64,000 nucleotides of DNA from Roseomonas sp. OT10 (GTDB lineage Bacteria > Pseudomonadota > Alphaproteobacteria > Acetobacterales > Acetobacteraceae): contig NZ_CP087719.1 in NCBI RefSeq assembly GCF_020991085.1, positions 124,001 through 188,000 of the forward strand, given 5' to 3'. Numbering within the stretch: the stretch's first letter is position 1; every line of letters begins with the position of its first letter. Below, piece after piece: positions 18,000 to 25,841 of the stretch. The position numbers and the translations under genes are program-made. The notes beneath the pieces were generated by a model. That model saw nothing but the letters and a program-made list of their open reading frames with translations, ran no database searches and had not been told where the DNA came from.

Positions 18000-18766
18000 T
18001 GCTCGACTTCAACAGCCGCAGCCAGACCTCTGCGCATGTGAATGCCGCCATCGACGCGGCGCTTGTCGCGGCCAATCAGGCGACGCCGCCGCGCAACTAC
18101 CTGGGCGGCTCGCGCCTCGGCCACACCTGCGAGCGCGCGCTGCAGTTCGAGTTCGTGAAGGCCCCGAAGGATGAGGGCGCTGACTTCGACGGACGGCTGT
18201 TGCGCATCTTTGGGATCGGCCATGCGCTGGAGGACGTTGCCGTCGCCTGGCTGCGAGGCGCCGGCTTCGATCTCTACACCCGCCGCGGCGGTGGCGAGCA
18301 TGGCGAGCAGTTCGGCTTCTCAGTCGCCGGCGGTCGCATCCGCGGTCATGTGGACGGCGTCTTCGCCGGAGGCCCCGCCGTCCCCGGCATGGCGTTCCCG
18401 GCGCTGTGGGAATGCAAGACCATGAACGCCAAGGCCTGGCGCGAGACGTCCAGCAAGGGCGTCGCCGCGGCCAAGCCGATCTATGCGGCGCAGATCGCGG
18501 TCTACCAGGCCTACATGGACGCCAGCGTCCCGGGCGTGGCGGACAATCCGGCGCTGTTCACCGCCATCAACAAGGACACGGCGGAGCTGCACCACGAGCT
18601 GGTGCCGTTCAACGCGGAGCTGGCGCAGCGCATGTCGGACCGGGCGGTGCGCATCCTCGCCGCGACGGATGCCGGCGAATTGCTTCCCCGCCTTGCCGCC
18701 CAAGCCGATCACTTCGAGTGCCGGTTCTGCCCCTGGGCCAAGCGGTGCTGGGCGCTGCCTGCATGA
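17999..18766 (+). CDS. Cas4/RecB-like PD-(D/E)XK exonuclease
   Basis: A 255-aa protein. GHALEDVAVAWL, GRIRGHVDGVF and ALWECKTMN give the H...D...ExK arrangement of RecB-like nucleases. The C terminus HFECRFCPWAKRCW supplies clustered cysteines like the Cas4 iron-sulfur site, with an upstream Cys in RLGHTCERAL. Such phage enzymes resect DNA ends for recombination. The stop overlaps the primase-helicase start as ATGA. Confidence 0.85.
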   Translation: MLDFNSRSQTSAHVNAAIDAALVAANQATPPRNYLGGSRLGHTCERALQFEFVKAPKDEGADFDGRLLRIFGIGHALEDVAVAWLRGAGFDLYTRRGGGEHGEQFGFSVAGGRIRGHVDGVFAGGPAVPGMAFPALWECKTMNAKAWRETSSKGVAAAKPIYAAQIAVYQAYMDASVPGVADNPALFTAINKDTAELHHELVPFNAELAQRMSDRAVRILAATDAGELLPRLAAQADHFECRFCPWAKRCWALPA

Positions 18767-21039
18767 CGGCATGGGGCGACTTCAACGACGCGGCCTGCCT
18801 GCCCGGCGAGGCAGAGGCGCCGGCAGCGATCGACGCGAGCGCGATCGCCGCGTTCCTCGAGGTGGTGTTCGGCTATTGCGACGGGCTGATCCCGGTCCGC
18901 GGTTTCGTCGACCAGGGCCAGGGCATCGACACCCGCCCGCACAACATCTGGATCCCAGCCGATGCTACCGCGGGCGAGCTTCTGGCCACCTACGCCGCCT
19001 GGGCCGCGCGTGAGGGCAGCGCGGTCTACGTCATTCCCGGCACCGTTGCCGAGCACGGCCAAGCCCGGGCCGAGCATGTCCTGCAGATGCAGGCCGCCGT
19101 CGTTGATCTCGACAATGGTGATGTCGAGGCGAAGCTGGCGCACCTGGTCCAGCACGTCGGCGCGCCCACCCTTCTGGTCGAAAGCGGCGGGCGCACGGCT
19201 GAGGGTGCGGCAAAGCTCCACGCTTGGTGGCGACTGACGGAGCCAGCCGAGGGCGGCGACATCCATCGCCTCTGCACGCTGCGCGGCGACATCGCGGACA
19301 AGGTCGGCGGCGACGCCCACTTCCGCTCCGCTCACCAGCCCATCCGCGTGCCGGGCACCGTCTACCGCAAGGGCGGCGTGGAGCGCGTCGTCACCATCCG
19401 CCACCACGACCCACGCCGCGAGATCGAACTGAGTGACCTCGCCGAGGCGGTCGCCGTCATGCCCTTCCTGCCTGGCCAGGAACGCGCCCAGGCTGGCGCA
19501 CAGGGCGAACGGCCGGGTCTCGACGCCGTCCTGACCACGCCAGTGCGGGAGGGCGCCCAGGACGGTTGGACGCGCTTCCAGGGGGCGAGCGCCGCGATCG
19601 GCCACTTCGTCCGCCAGGTGCATGAAGGCCGCCTCACGCCCGACCAGGGCTGGGAGGCCATCTGCGGGTACAACGCCGCCTGCTTGCGCCCGGCCTGGCC
19701 GCTGGATCGCCTGAAAGCCGAGGCCGACGCGCTCTGGGCGCTGCACGTTGACCGCAACGGGCCGCCGCTGCTGCGCGCCGACGCCGCACCATCAGCAGCC
19801 GTCCCCGCCCACACGCTCGGCGCGCTGCTCGACGACAGTTCGCCAATGCCCGACGACCTCATCGGCCCTCGCTTGCTTACCCCGGGTGGGATGCTGGTGC
19901 TCGGCGGCGCGCCGAAGGTCGGCAAATCCGACTTCCTCATCAGCCTGCTCGTGCACGCCGCCGCCGGCGCGCCCTTCCTGCGCTTCACCGCGCCGCGGCC
20001 GCTGCGCGTGTTCTACCTGCAGGCCGAGATTCAGTACCACTATCTCCGCGAGCGCCTGCAGCAGCTGCGCCTCGACCGCGCCGTCGTTGCCCGCGCGCGC
20101 GACACCCTCGTCGTCACCCCCAAGCTGCGCATGCTGCTCAACGAGCGCGGCGTGCCGCTGGTGGCTGCCGCCATTCGCCAGGCCTTCCCCGACGCGCCGG
20201 CGGACGTGATCTGCATCGATCCAATCCGCAACCTGTTCGACGGTGGCCCCGGCGGCGAAGGCGAGAACGATAACGCGGCGATGCTGTTCTTCCTGCAGAG
20301 CCGCGTCGAGGCGCTGCGCGACGAGGTGGCACCCGAGGCGGGCATCATCCTCGCCCACCACACGAAAAAGCTCAGCAAGCAACAGGTGAAGGACGATCCC
20401 TTCCTGTCGCTCTCCGGCGCCTCCGCGCTGCGCGGCTTCTACACCTCCGGCATGATCCTCTTCCGCCCTGATGAGGAGGAGACGCCGCGCGAACTGCATA
20501 TCGAGCTGCGCAACGGGCCCGGCCTCAACCCGCTCCTCATCGACAAGCGCGGCGGCGCCTGGGTGGAGCTCGACCGCAGAGGCGCGCGCATCGTGCGGCG
20601 TGACGTCGGCGCCCGCCTCGACGCCGAGCGCAGCCGTCGCCACGACGTCATCCTGCAGATCATCGCGCAGGAGGCCCGCGAAGGGCGCGTGTTCACGGGC
20701 GGCGCCTTCGCGGCGCAGTTCGAGAACACGCACGGTCTGGGTGGCAACGACACCATCGCGCGCCGCATCAACGTCCTCGCCAACAAGGGCTACATCAAGT
20801 TCCTGCGCGCGGCCCCGGAGCACGGCATTCCTGCCAGCAAATCCTCCAAGGGCTATCTGCTGGTGCAGGACATGCTCTTCGCGACGGGCGAGGAGACGAC
20901 GGATCCCGAGACCGGCGAGATCACGCCGACCCTGGTCCGCCTGCTGCCCAGCCACTTCCAGTCGGACACCAACAGCGCCGTCCTGCCGGTCGAAAACCCC
21001 GAGGTCTGGGTGCTGAACGACCCGGAGGTCGAGGCATGA
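18763..21039 (+). CDS. Phage primase-helicase-type replication protein
   Basis: A 758-aa protein chosen from ATG 18763, overlapping the previous stop by 4 nt. The N-terminal half contains AVVDLDNGDVEAKL, HAWWRLT and RSAHQPIRVPGTVYRK, typical of RepB/DUF3987-like archaeo-eukaryotic primase domains. From about residue 370 an AAA_25/RecA helicase follows, with Walker A GGAPKVGKSD near 379-388 and the Walker B ICIDPIRN near 483. A C-terminal segment resembles a winged helix. This is probably the main replication initiator or helicase; the repeat array directly downstream may be its target. Confidence 0.85.
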   Translation: MTAWGDFNDAACLPGEAEAPAAIDASAIAAFLEVVFGYCDGLIPVRGFVDQGQGIDTRPHNIWIPADATAGELLATYAAWAAREGSAVYVIPGTVAEHGQARAEHVLQMQAAVVDLDNGDVEAKLAHLVQHVGAPTLLVESGGRTAEGAAKLHAWWRLTEPAEGGDIHRLCTLRGDIADKVGGDAHFRSAHQPIRVPGTVYRKGGVERVVTIRHHDPRREIELSDLAEAVAVMPFLPGQERAQAGAQGERPGLDAVLTTPVREGAQDGWTRFQGASAAIGHFVRQVHEGRLTPDQGWEAICGYNAACLRPAWPLDRLKAEADALWALHVDRNGPPLLRADAAPSAAVPAHTLGALLDDSSPMPDDLIGPRLLTPGGMLVLGGAPKVGKSDFLISLLVHAAAGAPFLRFTAPRPLRVFYLQAEIQYHYLRERLQQLRLDRAVVARARDTLVVTPKLRMLLNERGVPLVAAAIRQAFPDAPADVICIDPIRNLFDGGPGGEGENDNAAMLFFLQSRVEALRDEVAPEAGIILAHHTKKLSKQQVKDDPFLSLSGASALRGFYTSGMILFRPDEEETPRELHIELRNGPGLNPLLIDKRGGAWVELDRRGARIVRRDVGARLDAERSRRHDVILQIIAQEAREGRVFTGGAFAAQFENTHGLGGNDTIARRINVLANKGYIKFLRAAPEHGIPASKSSKGYLLVQDMLFATGEETTDPETGEITPTLVRLLPSHFQSDTNSAVLPVENPEVWVLNDPEVEA

Positions 21040-21068
21040 TCGACCCGATCGGAACGCCCCCGCACCGT

Positions 21069-21267
21069 GCGGAACTTGGTGCGGAACTTGGCAGTTCCGC
21101 AAGTTCCGCAGCGCTGCGGAACTTCCCTGCGGAACTTGATTTGCCCAAGCATTCCAATGGGTTCGCCAAGTTCCGCAAGTTCCGCAAACGGGCTTTGCGG
21201 AACTGGCTTGCGGAACTTCAAAATGTCCAGCCCGAACAAGCGGTTAGGCAAGTTCCGCAAGTTCCGC
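21069..21267. repeat. Array of 12 GCGGAACTT / AAGTTCCGC repeats, candidate phage replication origin
   Basis: Twelve copies occur as six alternating pairs: forward 21069, 21081; reverse 21092, 21101; forward 21116, 21129; reverse 21168, 21177; forward 21197, 21210; reverse 21250, 21259. Copies at 21092 and 21197 carry one mismatch. Forward pairs are spaced 12-13 bp, reverse pairs exactly 9 bp. The copies fall in different reading frames, so the repeat is selected at DNA level. It lies directly after the primase-helicase gene in a gap with no credible gene. Confidence 0.85.
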
Positions 21268-21274
21268 AAAATCC

Positions 21275-21293
21275 CACCCCCCTACGGGGGGTG
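21275..21293. terminator. Strong GC hairpin following the repeat array
   Basis: CACCCCCC (21275-21282), a 3-nt loop TAC and GGGGGGTG (21286-21293) form a perfect 8-bp stem. A second hairpin, GCGCGCC/GGCGCGC with loop TCAAC, follows at 21299-21317. No T-tract follows, so transcription termination is only a possibility; they may instead belong to an origin. Confidence 0.45.
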
Positions 21294-21460
21294 TGCGTGC
21301 GCGCCTCAACGGCGCGCGCACACCACACCCAGAGCGGTCGGGTTCGGGCTCGTGGTCCACCCCGAGAGGGCCATCCCGGAAAGCCGGGCAGCGACGGCGA
21401 GCTCCGCCAAGAACCGCGCCGTCGCCGCCCTCACCACGACGATCCCCTCTTGGAGACCCC

Positions 21461-22009
21461 ATGGCTCTCGCGACTCTCCCCATGCCCGCGGCGCACGCAA
21501 GCGGCCCCTCCATCGCCGAACCACCTGCGATCAACCTGGCACGCCACGCGGTGCTCGCGCTCGATCTCGGCACCACCACTGGATGGGCGTTGCGCAGCCA
21601 GGACGGTGGCATCACCTCCGGCACCGTCACCTTCCGCCCGAGCCGCTTCGAGGGTGGCGGCATGCGCTACCTGCGCTTCCGCAGCTGGCTCGGCGAGCTG
21701 GCAGCGCTTGCCGGCGGCCTCACGCGCATCGCCTTCGAGGAGGTGCGCTCCCACGCCGGCACCGACGCCGCGCACCTCTATGGCGGCTTCCTCGCGCACC
21801 TCTCCGCGTGGTGCGAGGAGCGGGGCATCGCCTACGAGGGCGTGCCCGTCGGCACGATCAAGCGCTACGCGACGGGCAAGGGCAACGCTGACAAGGCGGC
21901 GATGATCGCGGCCATGCGCGCACGCGGCTTCGCGCCGGCCGACGACAACGAGGCCGATGCCATCGCCCTTCTGCTCTGGGCGACCGAGCCCACCGGAGGC
22001 CGCGCATGA
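21461..22009 (+). CDS. RuvC-like (RNase H-fold) Holliday junction nuclease
   Basis: A 182-aa protein. ATG 21461 is chosen because GGAG lies just upstream and the conserved part begins soon after. LALDLGTTTGWAL (Asp35), IAFEEVRSH (Glu near 88) and the final NEADAIALL give the acidic residues of a RuvC/RNase H-like nuclease. Phages use such resolvases to clear branched DNA before packaging. It overlaps the next start by 4 nt. Confidence 0.85.
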   Translation: MALATLPMPAAHASGPSIAEPPAINLARHAVLALDLGTTTGWALRSQDGGITSGTVTFRPSRFEGGGMRYLRFRSWLGELAALAGGLTRIAFEEVRSHAGTDAAHLYGGFLAHLSAWCEERGIAYEGVPVGTIKRYATGKGNADKAAMIAAMRARGFAPADDNEADAIALLLWATEPTGGRA

Positions 22010-22815: not shown

Positions 22816-23086
22816 CGCGCTGTTACAATTCACCCGCTGGCGGCTTGCAAATCGAGTTGGCTATGGTGGTGACACGTCGAGAAGGTGCGTCGAGCACCGC
22901 GGCTCTTGAGCCACTCGTCCGCTGATTTGCCACTGTGGCTCGCGAGCTGCAGGGTCCTTCCTGGGCCTGCTGTATGCGGGGGGCGGAAGCGCGCAAGGTT
23001 CCTAGCGCCAGGCCAGTTTTCCAGGTTGCCAGCGTCGCGCAGTTGCCAGCCGCGCCGGCCACCAATCCACGATCACGCAGGTGCAG
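22816..23086. other. Non-coding gap before the methyltransferase pair
   Basis: No credible gene is seen on either strand. The sequence has less of the strong codon periodicity of its neighbours. It probably holds the promoter of the methyltransferase genes, but no clear -35/-10 pair could be assigned. Confidence 0.5.
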
Positions 23087-24583
23087 ATGCCCCAGGCCCC
23101 ATGGTCTGCGAGCGCCGTCGAGGCGCGCGCGGTCGCCGCGCTGCTGCCCTACGCCGGGAACGCGCGCACGCACTCCGCCGAGCAGGTGGCGCAGATCGCG
23201 GCCAGCATCCTCGAATTCGGCTTCGTCGCGCCGGTGCTGGTGGACGAACGCGGCGAGATCATCGCCGGCCACGGCCGGCTGCTGGCTGCGAAGTCCCTCG
23301 GCCTCGACGCCGTGCCGACCATCGTCCGCGGCGGCCTGACCGAGGCGCAGAAGGCAGCGTATCGGCTCGCCGACAATCGCATCGCGCTGAACGCCGGCTG
23401 GGACGAAGCGCTGCTCGCGGCCGAGGTCGCGAAGCTGCAGGAAATGGGCGGCATCGACCTGGCGCTGACCGGTTTCGACGGCGCCGAGATCGAGCGGCTG
23501 CTGGCAGGGCTGGAAACCGAGGCCGACAACCTCCCGGCGCCGGCGGTTGCCAGTGGTGCCGAGCCCGCTCCTGGCAACCAGCCGGACGCGGATGGCGCGG
23601 AGCCGACGGAAGACCCCGCGGATGCGGAACCTGAGCCGCCCCGCCAAGCCGTCGCACGCGTCGGCGACATCTGGCTGCTGGGCGAGCACCGCCTCGCCTG
23701 CGGCGACAGCACCAATCGAAGCACAGTCGCGCGCGTCATGGCTGCGGATCGCGCCGCGCTGCTGTTCACCAGCCCGCCCTATGGGAACCAGCGGGACTAT
23801 ACGACCGGCGGCGTGTTCGATTGGGACGCGCTGATGCAGGGCGTGTTCGGGCATCTCGAAGGCGCGCTCCGGCGCGACGCTCAGGTGCTGGTGAATCTTG
23901 GGCTGATCCATCGCGAGGGTGAATGGCAGCCGTATTGGCAGGGCTGGCTGGACTGGATGCGTGGCCAGGGCTGGCGGCGCTTCGGGCTCTACGCCTGGGA
24001 CCAGGGCCCCGGCCTGCCCGGCGACTGGAACGGGCGGCTCGCGCCGGCCTTCGAGCTGGTCTTCCACTTCAACCGCGAGGCGCGGCAGGCGAACAAGATC
24101 GTGCCGTGCAAGTGGGCCGGCACGCCGAACAAGGGCAGCGGGCTGCGCGCCGCTGACGGCGAGGTGAAGGCCTACACCCATATCGGCCTGCCGGTGCAGG
24201 AGATGCGCATCCCGGACAGCGTGCTGCGCATCACGCGACACAAGGCGCGGGGGATCGAGACCGAGCACCCGGCGGTGTTCCCCGTCGCGCTTCCGGAGTT
24301 CCTGATGCGCGCCTACACGGACGAGGGCGACGTCGTGTTCGAGCCCTTCGGCGGCTCGGGCACGACCATCCTCGCCGGCCAGCGCACGGGTCGGCGCGTC
24401 CGCGCCATTGAGCTCGCGCCGGCCTATGTCGACCTGGCGATCGCCCGCTGGCGGATGCTGCACCCAGACCTGCCGGTGACGCTGGCCGAGGACGGACGAG
24501 ACCACGACACGGTCGCCGCGGCGCGCACGAGCCCTCAGGCAACGCCCGAGCAGGGCGGTAAGGCGCCGGCCGATGCTGCCTGA
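23087..24583 (+). CDS. ParB-domain DNA methyltransferase (first of a tandem pair)
   Basis: A 498-aa protein from ATG 23087 (CAGG 5 nt upstream; GTG 23081 possible). Residues 1-150 are a ParB/Srx-like domain (NARTHSAEQVAQIAASI, IIAGHGRLLAA, LADNRIALN). After a Pro/Ala linker the methyltransferase part has motif IV TSPPYG near 228 and motif I EPFGGSGTT near 419, beta-class order. Phages use such enzymes to methylate their DNA against host restriction. It overlaps the second methyltransferase by 11 nt and the two share the ParB fusion, so they arose by duplication. Confidence 0.9.
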   Translation: MPQAPWSASAVEARAVAALLPYAGNARTHSAEQVAQIAASILEFGFVAPVLVDERGEIIAGHGRLLAAKSLGLDAVPTIVRGGLTEAQKAAYRLADNRIALNAGWDEALLAAEVAKLQEMGGIDLALTGFDGAEIERLLAGLETEADNLPAPAVASGAEPAPGNQPDADGAEPTEDPADAEPEPPRQAVARVGDIWLLGEHRLACGDSTNRSTVARVMAADRAALLFTSPPYGNQRDYTTGGVFDWDALMQGVFGHLEGALRRDAQVLVNLGLIHREGEWQPYWQGWLDWMRGQGWRRFGLYAWDQGPGLPGDWNGRLAPAFELVFHFNREARQANKIVPCKWAGTPNKGSGLRAADGEVKAYTHIGLPVQEMRIPDSVLRITRHKARGIETEHPAVFPVALPEFLMRAYTDEGDVVFEPFGGSGTTILAGQRTGRRVRAIELAPAYVDLAIARWRMLHPDLPVTLAEDGRDHDTVAAARTSPQATPEQGGKAPADAA

Positions 24584-25841
24584 TCTCCGCGTCGAGATGA
24601 TGCCTGTGGCGGCGCTCGCGCCCTACGCCGCGAACGCCCGGCTCCATCCCACCGAGCAGGTGGCGCAGCTCGCCGCCTCGATCGGGGAGTTCGGCTTCAA
24701 CGTGCCGGTGCTGGTGGATGACGCCGGCGTGCTGATCGCCGGCCATGGCCGCGTGCTCGCCGCCAAGGCGCTCGGCCTCGATGAGGTGCCGGCGATCCGG
24801 CTCGGGCACCTGACCGAGGCGCAGGCGCGGGCGTTCCGGCTGGCGGACAACCAGCTGGCGCTCAACTCCACCTGGGACGAGGGACTGCTCGCCGCCGAGC
24901 TGCGCGCGCTGCGCACCGACGAGTTCGACCTCGGGCTGATCGGCTTCGACGGGGCGACGCTCGACCGGCTGCTGGACGAGGCGGCGTCAGACGCCCCGGC
25001 CGCACCTGGCGGGGATCCCGACGCTCCGGCGCCAGAGCCGCCCGAGGCTCCCATCACGCAGCCTGGCGATCTGTGGCTGCTCGGCCCGCACCGGCTGCTC
25101 TGTGGCGACGCCACCTCCGCTGCGGACGTCGCGCGGCTGCTCGACGGCGCGCGGCCACACCTGATGATCACGGACCCGCCCTACGGTGTGAACTACGATC
25201 CCGAGTGGCGGAATGAGGCGGGCGTCTCGGCCACGATGCGCACAGGCAAGGTGGCGAACGACGACCGCGCCGACTGGCGCGACGCCTGGGCGCTGTTCCC
25301 AGGCGACGTCGCCTATGTCTGGCACGCGGGCGTGCACGCGCGCACGGTGATCGAGAGCCTCGAGGCGGCGGGCTTCGCGGTGCGGAGCCAGATCGTCTGG
25401 GCGAAGTCGCGCTTCGTGCTCGGGCGAGGCGACTACCACTGGCAGCACGAGCCCTGCCTCTATGCAGTGCGCAAGGGTGCGACCGGCCACTGGCAAGGCG
25501 CGCGCGACCAGGCAACGCTCTGGCCGATCAGCGCGGGAGGCGACGAGGACGCGGCGACGGTGCACGGCACACAGAAGCCAGTGGAGTGCATGCGGCGGCC
25601 TATGCTGAACAACAGCGCTCCGGGCGAAGTCGTCTACGAGCCGTTCTGCGGCAGCGGCAGCACCATCATCGCCGCGGAGACCATTAGTCGCATCTGCTAC
25701 GCGATGGAGCTCGACCGCCGCTATGTCGATGTCGCGGTGCGCCGGTGGCAGGCCTTCACGGGCCGTGCGGCCGTGCTGGCGGGGGAGGAGCGGGTCTTCG
25801 ACGACATCGCCGCCGCCCGCGGCATGCAGGCGGCGGCGTGA
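24573..25841 (+). CDS. ParB-domain DNA methyltransferase (second of a tandem pair)
   Basis: A 422-aa protein. The N-terminal ParB-like domain (NARLHPTEQVAQLAASI, LIAGHGRVLAA) closely parallels the upstream gene. Motif IV DPPYG is at residues 201-205 and motif I EPFCGSGST near 356. The catalytic motif differs (DPPYG against TSPPYG), and the region between motifs differs strongly, suggesting another target sequence or base. It should act as an orphan methyltransferase; no restriction enzyme is encoded beside it. Confidence 0.9.
   Translation: MLPDLRVEMMPVAALAPYAANARLHPTEQVAQLAASIGEFGFNVPVLVDDAGVLIAGHGRVLAAKALGLDEVPAIRLGHLTEAQARAFRLADNQLALNSTWDEGLLAAELRALRTDEFDLGLIGFDGATLDRLLDEAASDAPAAPGGDPDAPAPEPPEAPITQPGDLWLLGPHRLLCGDATSAADVARLLDGARPHLMITDPPYGVNYDPEWRNEAGVSATMRTGKVANDDRADWRDAWALFPGDVAYVWHAGVHARTVIESLEAAGFAVRSQIVWAKSRFVLGRGDYHWQHEPCLYAVRKGATGHWQGARDQATLWPISAGGDEDAATVHGTQKPVECMRRPMLNNSAPGEVVYEPFCGSGSTIIAAETISRICYAMELDRRYVDVAVRRWQAFTGRAAVLAGEERVFDDIAAARGMQAAA

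Follow-up and report, generated by a model that had tools for sequence, protein, structure and literature searches.

The locus and its repeat array

The window examined here, meaning the whole 64-kb stretch (64,000 nucleotides) from Roseomonas sp. OT10, carries a gene on the + strand (18763..21039) whose 758-amino-acid product is assigned as a primase-helicase by matches to Pfam AAA_25, phrog_13004 and phrog_239, by structure models and by structural matches. Phage genes flank the site: upstream are genes for a Cas4-like exonuclease, a helicase and a Sak4-like protein, and downstream are those for terminase, portal, head and tail proteins. The next gene starts with an ATG at 21461, which leaves a gap of 421 nucleotides (21040-21460). 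Its product (21461-22009), for which no Pfam or NCBIfam match was found, looks like a RuvC/RNase-H-fold protein from its LDLGTTTGWA stretch. At 23081-25841 of the window are two adjacent genes, each with ParB-like and DNA methyltransferase matches (Pfam for the first, PHROGs for both).

Within the gap, beginning 29 nucleotides past the primase-helicase stop codon, lies an array of 12 copies of GCGGAACTT / AAGTTCCGC (21069..21267, unstranded), which we propose are initiator-binding sites, as judged from their sequence and from arrays at the same place in relatives. Ten copies are exact, with forward starts at 21069, 21081, 21116, 21129 and 21210 and reverse starts at 21101, 21168, 21177, 21250 and 21259. 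The other two, a reverse copy at 21092-21100 and a forward copy at 21197-21205, both read GCGGAACTG and carry one mismatch. The copies follow the order >><<>><<>><<, in which forward pairs are spaced 12, 13 and 13 bp from start to start, and reverse pairs abut directly with a 9-bp period on all three occasions. The twelve copies, their alternation in pairs and their spacings are as the initial annotation had given them.

Copies with at most one mismatch number 31 on both strands of the 64-kb window, versus 11.7 (sd 3.5) in shuffled sequences, and 12 of the 31 fall within the 199 bp of the array. In the 5.69-Mb host genome, the exact doublet AAGTTCCGCAAGTTCCGC is present only twice, each time inside the array. 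GC content dips to 0.55-0.63 within the array, and GC skew has no clear switch there. A coding repeat was considered and rejected: a frame from 21036 crosses the array, yet that frame yields no Pfam or PHROG match. Iteron origins place several copies of a short site beside the gene for a replication initiator, which is the arrangement formed here by the array and the primase-helicase gene.

Predicted domains of the primase-helicase

Models and structural matches divide the protein into an AEP primase (residues ~22-231), a RepA-like helicase (~380-562) and a C-terminal winged helix (~606-758). By model, the chain thus links a primase resembling RepB′ and a helicase resembling RepA to a winged helix. 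The helicase part is identified both by Pfam AAA_25 and by a structural match to RepA. For the primase part, Pfam RepB_primase scores below its cut-off (13.3 versus 24.3 bits), and a sequence search of the PDB returned nothing relevant. Model quality is moderate for the full-length protein (pLDDT 70, pTM 0.37), and the winged-helix domain modelled alone (20578..21036, + strand) reaches a pLDDT of 85. Residues 662-675 (20746..20787, + strand) form a helix in the model and are predicted to be the recognition helix.

Parts of this protein also occur in other settings. The first ~325 residues of the primase are matched at ~50% identity in open frames of ~830-1080 amino acids whose remainder is unmatched (genomes G034, G060, G167, G228 and others), and the primase part seems to have been combined with other partners as well. 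In phage WO (L215, KX522565), an AAA_25 protein akin to the helicase part has a short gene to itself (annotation: AAA25 phage related protein), and that gene includes no primase part.

Relatives carry different motifs at the same place

Relatives were collected as the best 80 of 597 and the best 80 of 337 matches, and judging by record names they are presumably mainly Roseomonas-like Acetobacteraceae, Paracoccus-like Rhodobacteraceae and other Alphaproteobacteria. A 7-mer occurring at least four times in 250 nucleotides is present in 109 of 134 distinct downstream regions, versus 1 of 123 and 4 of 133 control stretches. Arrays thus occupy the same place in relatives, where they are built from at least a dozen different motifs of 9-10 bp. 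The most frequent words are CCGAAACTGC (23 loci), GCGGAACTT (21 loci) and CCTAACTCCT (18 loci); further words include TGGCAACTG, GGAATCTGG, GGATTCTGG, TGGCAGCTT, TCCCAAAGT, TCCCAACTT (or -G), CCGAAACTGG, CCAAACTGG and others. The initial annotation had named loss or decay of the array in relatives as evidence against its reading; the array is kept in them, but most labelled relatives carry a different motif.

Motif labels were derived from word counts, which left 26 of the 134 loci unlabelled, most of them later read as CCTAACTCAT. Labels K, L, P and Q were set by hand, L120 was assigned to class C by eye, and label N represents a wrong split from L054/L122. Later counts exclude two loci: L045, whose frame ends early in its contig, and the distant L170. 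All counts given are of loci, many of which are related to each other.

Two IHF-like sites form a scaffold in most relatives

The consensus sequence for IHF binding is WATCARNNNNTTR. Of 132 loci, 65 contain an exact copy of this consensus in the 280 nucleotides past the stop codon and 118 contain one that deviates at no more than one position, compared to 0.4 and 12.2 in shuffled sequences. On the opposite strand of the same 280 nucleotides, the corresponding numbers are 0 and 13. The spacing between two IHF-like sites is 79-82 bp in 75 of 82 cases.

The repeat copies are oriented with respect to these sites. At the first IHF-like site, 101 of 102 loci have a forward copy ahead of it and 97 have a reverse copy behind it; at the second, the numbers are 82 and 96. 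The opposite orientations at these four positions were seen in 2, 2, 2 and 3 of 102 loci. This count covers 102 of the 132 loci in thirteen label groups, with 30 excluded beforehand (B2, F except L121, N, O, Q and three unlabelled), and it took the best IHF-like pair at 79-82 bp for each locus, such that it is no test of the spacing. In the unlabelled group, a forward copy lies ahead of the second site in just 1 of 21 loci. The forward/reverse alternation of the array can therefore be described as the pattern 'copy > IHF < copy' occurring twice, with extra copies upstream. The arrays of L147, L161, L082 and L072 (labels B2, F and O), which also lie past the primase stop codon, are spaced differently and lack the two-site scaffold.

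Many loci of classes B and C have one recurring variant word in particular slots. Counted from the first IHF-like site, CCGAATCTGC is found at -48, +35 (in a close form) and +103, and CCTCACTCCT is found at -58 and -30. By analogy, these fixed slots resemble the strong and weak sites of other origins, as if they were arranged on purpose.

In the window itself, the scaffold is degenerate. At the positions of the relatives' conserved sites, the first IHF-like site (21152..21164, + strand) carries three mismatches to the consensus, and the second (21234..21246, + strand), 82 bp from the first, carries two. The bends may therefore be weak or lost in this prophage, and IHF occupancy in the window is doubtful as judged from these sites. 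Both IHF alpha and IHF beta are encoded by the host, with scores above the curated cut-offs.

Motif and winged helix are exchanged together

Across 60 loci of classes A, B and C, protein identity within and between motif classes is alike for all 23 blocks of 25 residues that make up residues 1-575 (the observed difference is equalled or exceeded in 226 to 999 of 1000 label shuffles). All eight blocks past residue 575 are class-dependent (0 of 1000 shuffles), beginning with block 576-600 and strongly from residue 626 on, where the difference is 0.23-0.40. The exchanged part of the protein thus appears to start at about residue 576-626. Neighbouring genes have little or no dependence on motif class, although the exonuclease is represented by only 15 loci.

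Trees yield a similar picture. For nine labels in 70 loci, the motif changes 8 times, which is the minimum, on the tree of the C-terminal domain, versus 32 times on the tree of residues 1-599, a number slightly below the average of 37.7 obtained when labels are shuffled (5 of 500 shuffles needed no more changes). An example is the pair L021 and L036, whose proteins are 97% identical over residues 1-600 and 52% identical in the winged helix. Their DNA is 32-41% identical over the array and returns to 69-98% over the following 300 nucleotides.

Similarity between motifs was also compared with similarity between protein segments for 16 hand-chosen representatives. Motif similarity correlates with identity over residues 660-676 (r 0.50, p 0.0002), less so with the remainder of the domain (r 0.26, p 0.013) and only slightly with residues 1-600 (r 0.13, p 0.08). 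In a sliding window over the same representatives, the correlation is maximal at 657-680, which contains the predicted recognition helix, and is near zero within 601-656. A second peak is located outside the recognition helix, at residues 729-752 (window ~20947-21018; r 0.41 and 0.39).

From these sequence comparisons, the winged helix and the array behave as one exchangeable specificity cassette. The match between the array sites and their predicted reader domain is indirect, as it is based on the joint exchange and on the recognition-helix correlation. Linked exchange alone could pair the array with the domain because the two adjoin: they are ~30 nucleotides apart, so that a single recombination tract tends to take both, and some other phage or host protein could be the reader. 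We regard such travel by adjacency as barely credible, given that the correlation with motif similarity peaks at the recognition helix and falls to almost nothing over residues 601-656 of the exchanged part, and that the neighbouring genes tested are hardly class-dependent.

Multi-site inverted arrays also act as operators or centromere-like sites. The protein could therefore bind the array as an operator or partition-like site, for example in controlling the downstream gene, and the location of the array in the gap ahead of that gene suits this role. However, the DNA-binding domain belongs to a primase-helicase, and an origin located 3′ of such a gene has a precedent in pRN1, as described in the available part of PMC4234260. 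We consider a regulatory or partition role unlikely.

Folding of the array and the adjoining hairpins

The strand of the array folds far better than shuffled sequences (z -10.8). However, this is expected because inverted repeats fold well by construction. Three GC-rich hairpins lie between the array and the next gene (21275-21430), two of which covary in 16 loci. The first two, of the CACCCCCC-TACG type and the GTGTGCGTGCGCGCC type, were recognized by sequence at 21275..21330 (unstranded), and the second of them (~21289-21330) is part of the covarying structure. The third (21387..21429, unstranded) has a conserved CCGCCAAG loop and also has covarying pairs in the 16 loci. Among 24 predicted pairs in these loci, 11 have changes on both sides that preserve the pair. 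The GC hairpins are a structure separate from the array. An Rfam search of 20900-21700 returned no hairpin match; a hit to gyrA RNA in the same region (15.9 bits versus a cut-off of 45) is far below threshold and was dismissed as chance.

These features could be taken to mean that the repeats act by pairing, with a folded single strand or RNA as the recognized object. Such a role has been proposed for the stem-loop of pRN1, which is required and variable in sequence according to the available part of PMC4234260, and both the folding of the array strand and the covarying hairpins beside it are in keeping with this idea. When 14 distinct class-A arrays were examined, however, 0 of 21 deviations were compensated in the hairpin partner, and both the number of copies and their pairing change from one motif class to another. 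A fold made by the array repeats is not supported by these sequences, and recognition through pairing appears very unlikely. The initial annotation had proposed an iteron-type origin with a folded structure; its fold is not borne out for the repeats, whereas an iteron-type origin read by the adjacent protein gains from the joint exchange of motif and winged helix and from the recognition-helix peak.

A proposed replication origin

We conclude that the array is quite probably an iteron-type replication origin of a tailed prophage, bound by the winged helix of the adjacent primase-helicase, bent by IHF and exchanged as a cassette among relatives. Protein binding, IHF occupancy, melting, priming and origin activity are what we infer from the arrangement. 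In the proposed mechanism, the C-terminal winged helix of the primase-helicase encoded upstream would bind the 9-bp sites, and host IHF would bend the DNA at two positions ~80 bp apart, such that the inward-pointing sites on each side are brought together. Several copies of the protein might then assemble, melt the less GC-rich array and load the helicase part. The AEP part would prime, possibly at the adjoining GC hairpins, as RepB′ does at ssiA/ssiB of RSF1010. Recombination would swap the winged helix and array among relatives and leave the IHF-like scaffold, the hairpins and the remainder of the enzyme in place.

Comparison with known systems

The helicase of P4 alpha belongs to SF3, and the P4 origin repeat probably has a different sequence. 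Lambda O is not known to carry a primase or a helicase. Known systems are compared here as presented in the available portions of the cited papers. P4 alpha, compared by description, is a single protein that unites primase and helicase with a winged helix for binding the repeats of the origin (PMC4234260), and the protein described here has the same composition by model. However, the primase of P4 alpha is of the Toprim type and the one found here is an AEP. At RSF1010 oriV, RepA, RepB′ and RepC are separate proteins and RepB′ primes at ssiA and ssiB (PMC4538821, PMC4234260). Structural matches link our primase and helicase parts to RepB′ and RepA, but here one protein takes the place of three, and the iterons of RSF1010 are read by RepC. 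By analogy with the ssi stem-loops near the RSF1010 iterons, the covarying hairpins after the array may be used for priming.

The pRN1 protein ORF904 has an AEP primase, a helicase and a C-terminal winged helix, and its origin lies 3′ of the gene and varies in sequence between relatives (PMC4234260). The proposed origin and its primase-helicase share all of these features. They differ in that pRN1 has an SF3 helicase and a 100-bp stem-loop without iterons, whereas here the helicase appears RepA-like from its matches and the sites are short and paired. In PLE satellites, the RepA_N domain covaries with the origin iterons, and the two move as one module on an otherwise constant initiator (PMC8263062), much as a DNA-binding domain and an iteron-type array appear to be swapped here. 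However, the five PLEs fall into two origin groups, and the loci described here have at least a dozen motifs and another type of initiator. Lambda O and ori-lambda likewise represent a phage initiator acting on iterons, but those iterons lie inside gene O (PMC3349717, PMC7466680) and not in a gap past the gene. Fusions of AEPs to RepA-type helicases have already been described (PMC5862659).

Each element of the proposed origin therefore has a precedent in P4 alpha, RSF1010, pRN1, PLE or lambda, as far as the consulted portions of these papers describe them. A search of open-licence papers, as far as their available text goes, returned nothing that we recognized as the origin of this phage group. 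What is apparently new, in that it was not seen in the literature searched, is the combination within one phage group of a conserved enzyme and two-IHF scaffold with a winged helix and array that are swapped among a dozen or more words.

Possible causes and significance of the exchange

One possible, though on balance somewhat doubtful, explanation is that origin specificity is under diversifying selection, where the enzyme and the two-IHF scaffold are kept and cassettes of winged helix plus array are repeatedly acquired to escape an agent that targets the origin, such as rival phages, satellites, origin-cutting nucleases or resident decoy origins. According to the available portions of two papers, replacement of the replication genes of lambda by those of P22 permits escape from inhibition by a resident ori-lambda plasmid (PMC3349717), and an origin-directed nuclease has been argued to be the selective force for PLE (PMC8263062), although we have no evidence for such a force here.

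Incompatibility between co-resident prophages was considered as a driver and is not supported, as prophages in the same genome share a motif class in 3 of 21 pairs versus 4.5 expected (P 0.31; ten genomes), and class sharing is thus not clearly avoided. This comparison uses classes typed by hand from the match listing and the labels, at loci with a readable array, and excludes G385, where two loci are of class A and a third has class-B words. An origin-directed nuclease might carry the C-terminal domain as a stand-alone copy, and no clearly separate copy was found among 397 family genomes with nine candidates scored per genome. In that set, 25 of the 397 genomes gave 39 matches to the domain, 36 of them in open frames of 766-1064 amino acids; the other three are in short frames (230, 100 and 210 amino acids), one of which starts at base 1 of its contig. 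Because class avoidance is not clear and no clearly separate copy of the domain was found, neither incompatibility nor an origin-cutting rival is supported so far.

Regardless of its cause, the exchange provides a natural series in which at least a dozen putative winged-helix readers are each matched with a DNA word on one scaffold. This series makes it testable how a winged helix changes the sequence that it reads, and how an origin with ~10 sites changes all of them at once, which here would occur by exchange of a cassette that holds both the reader and the sites. The system may also be useful as a compact model in which a single protein would melt and prime an origin.
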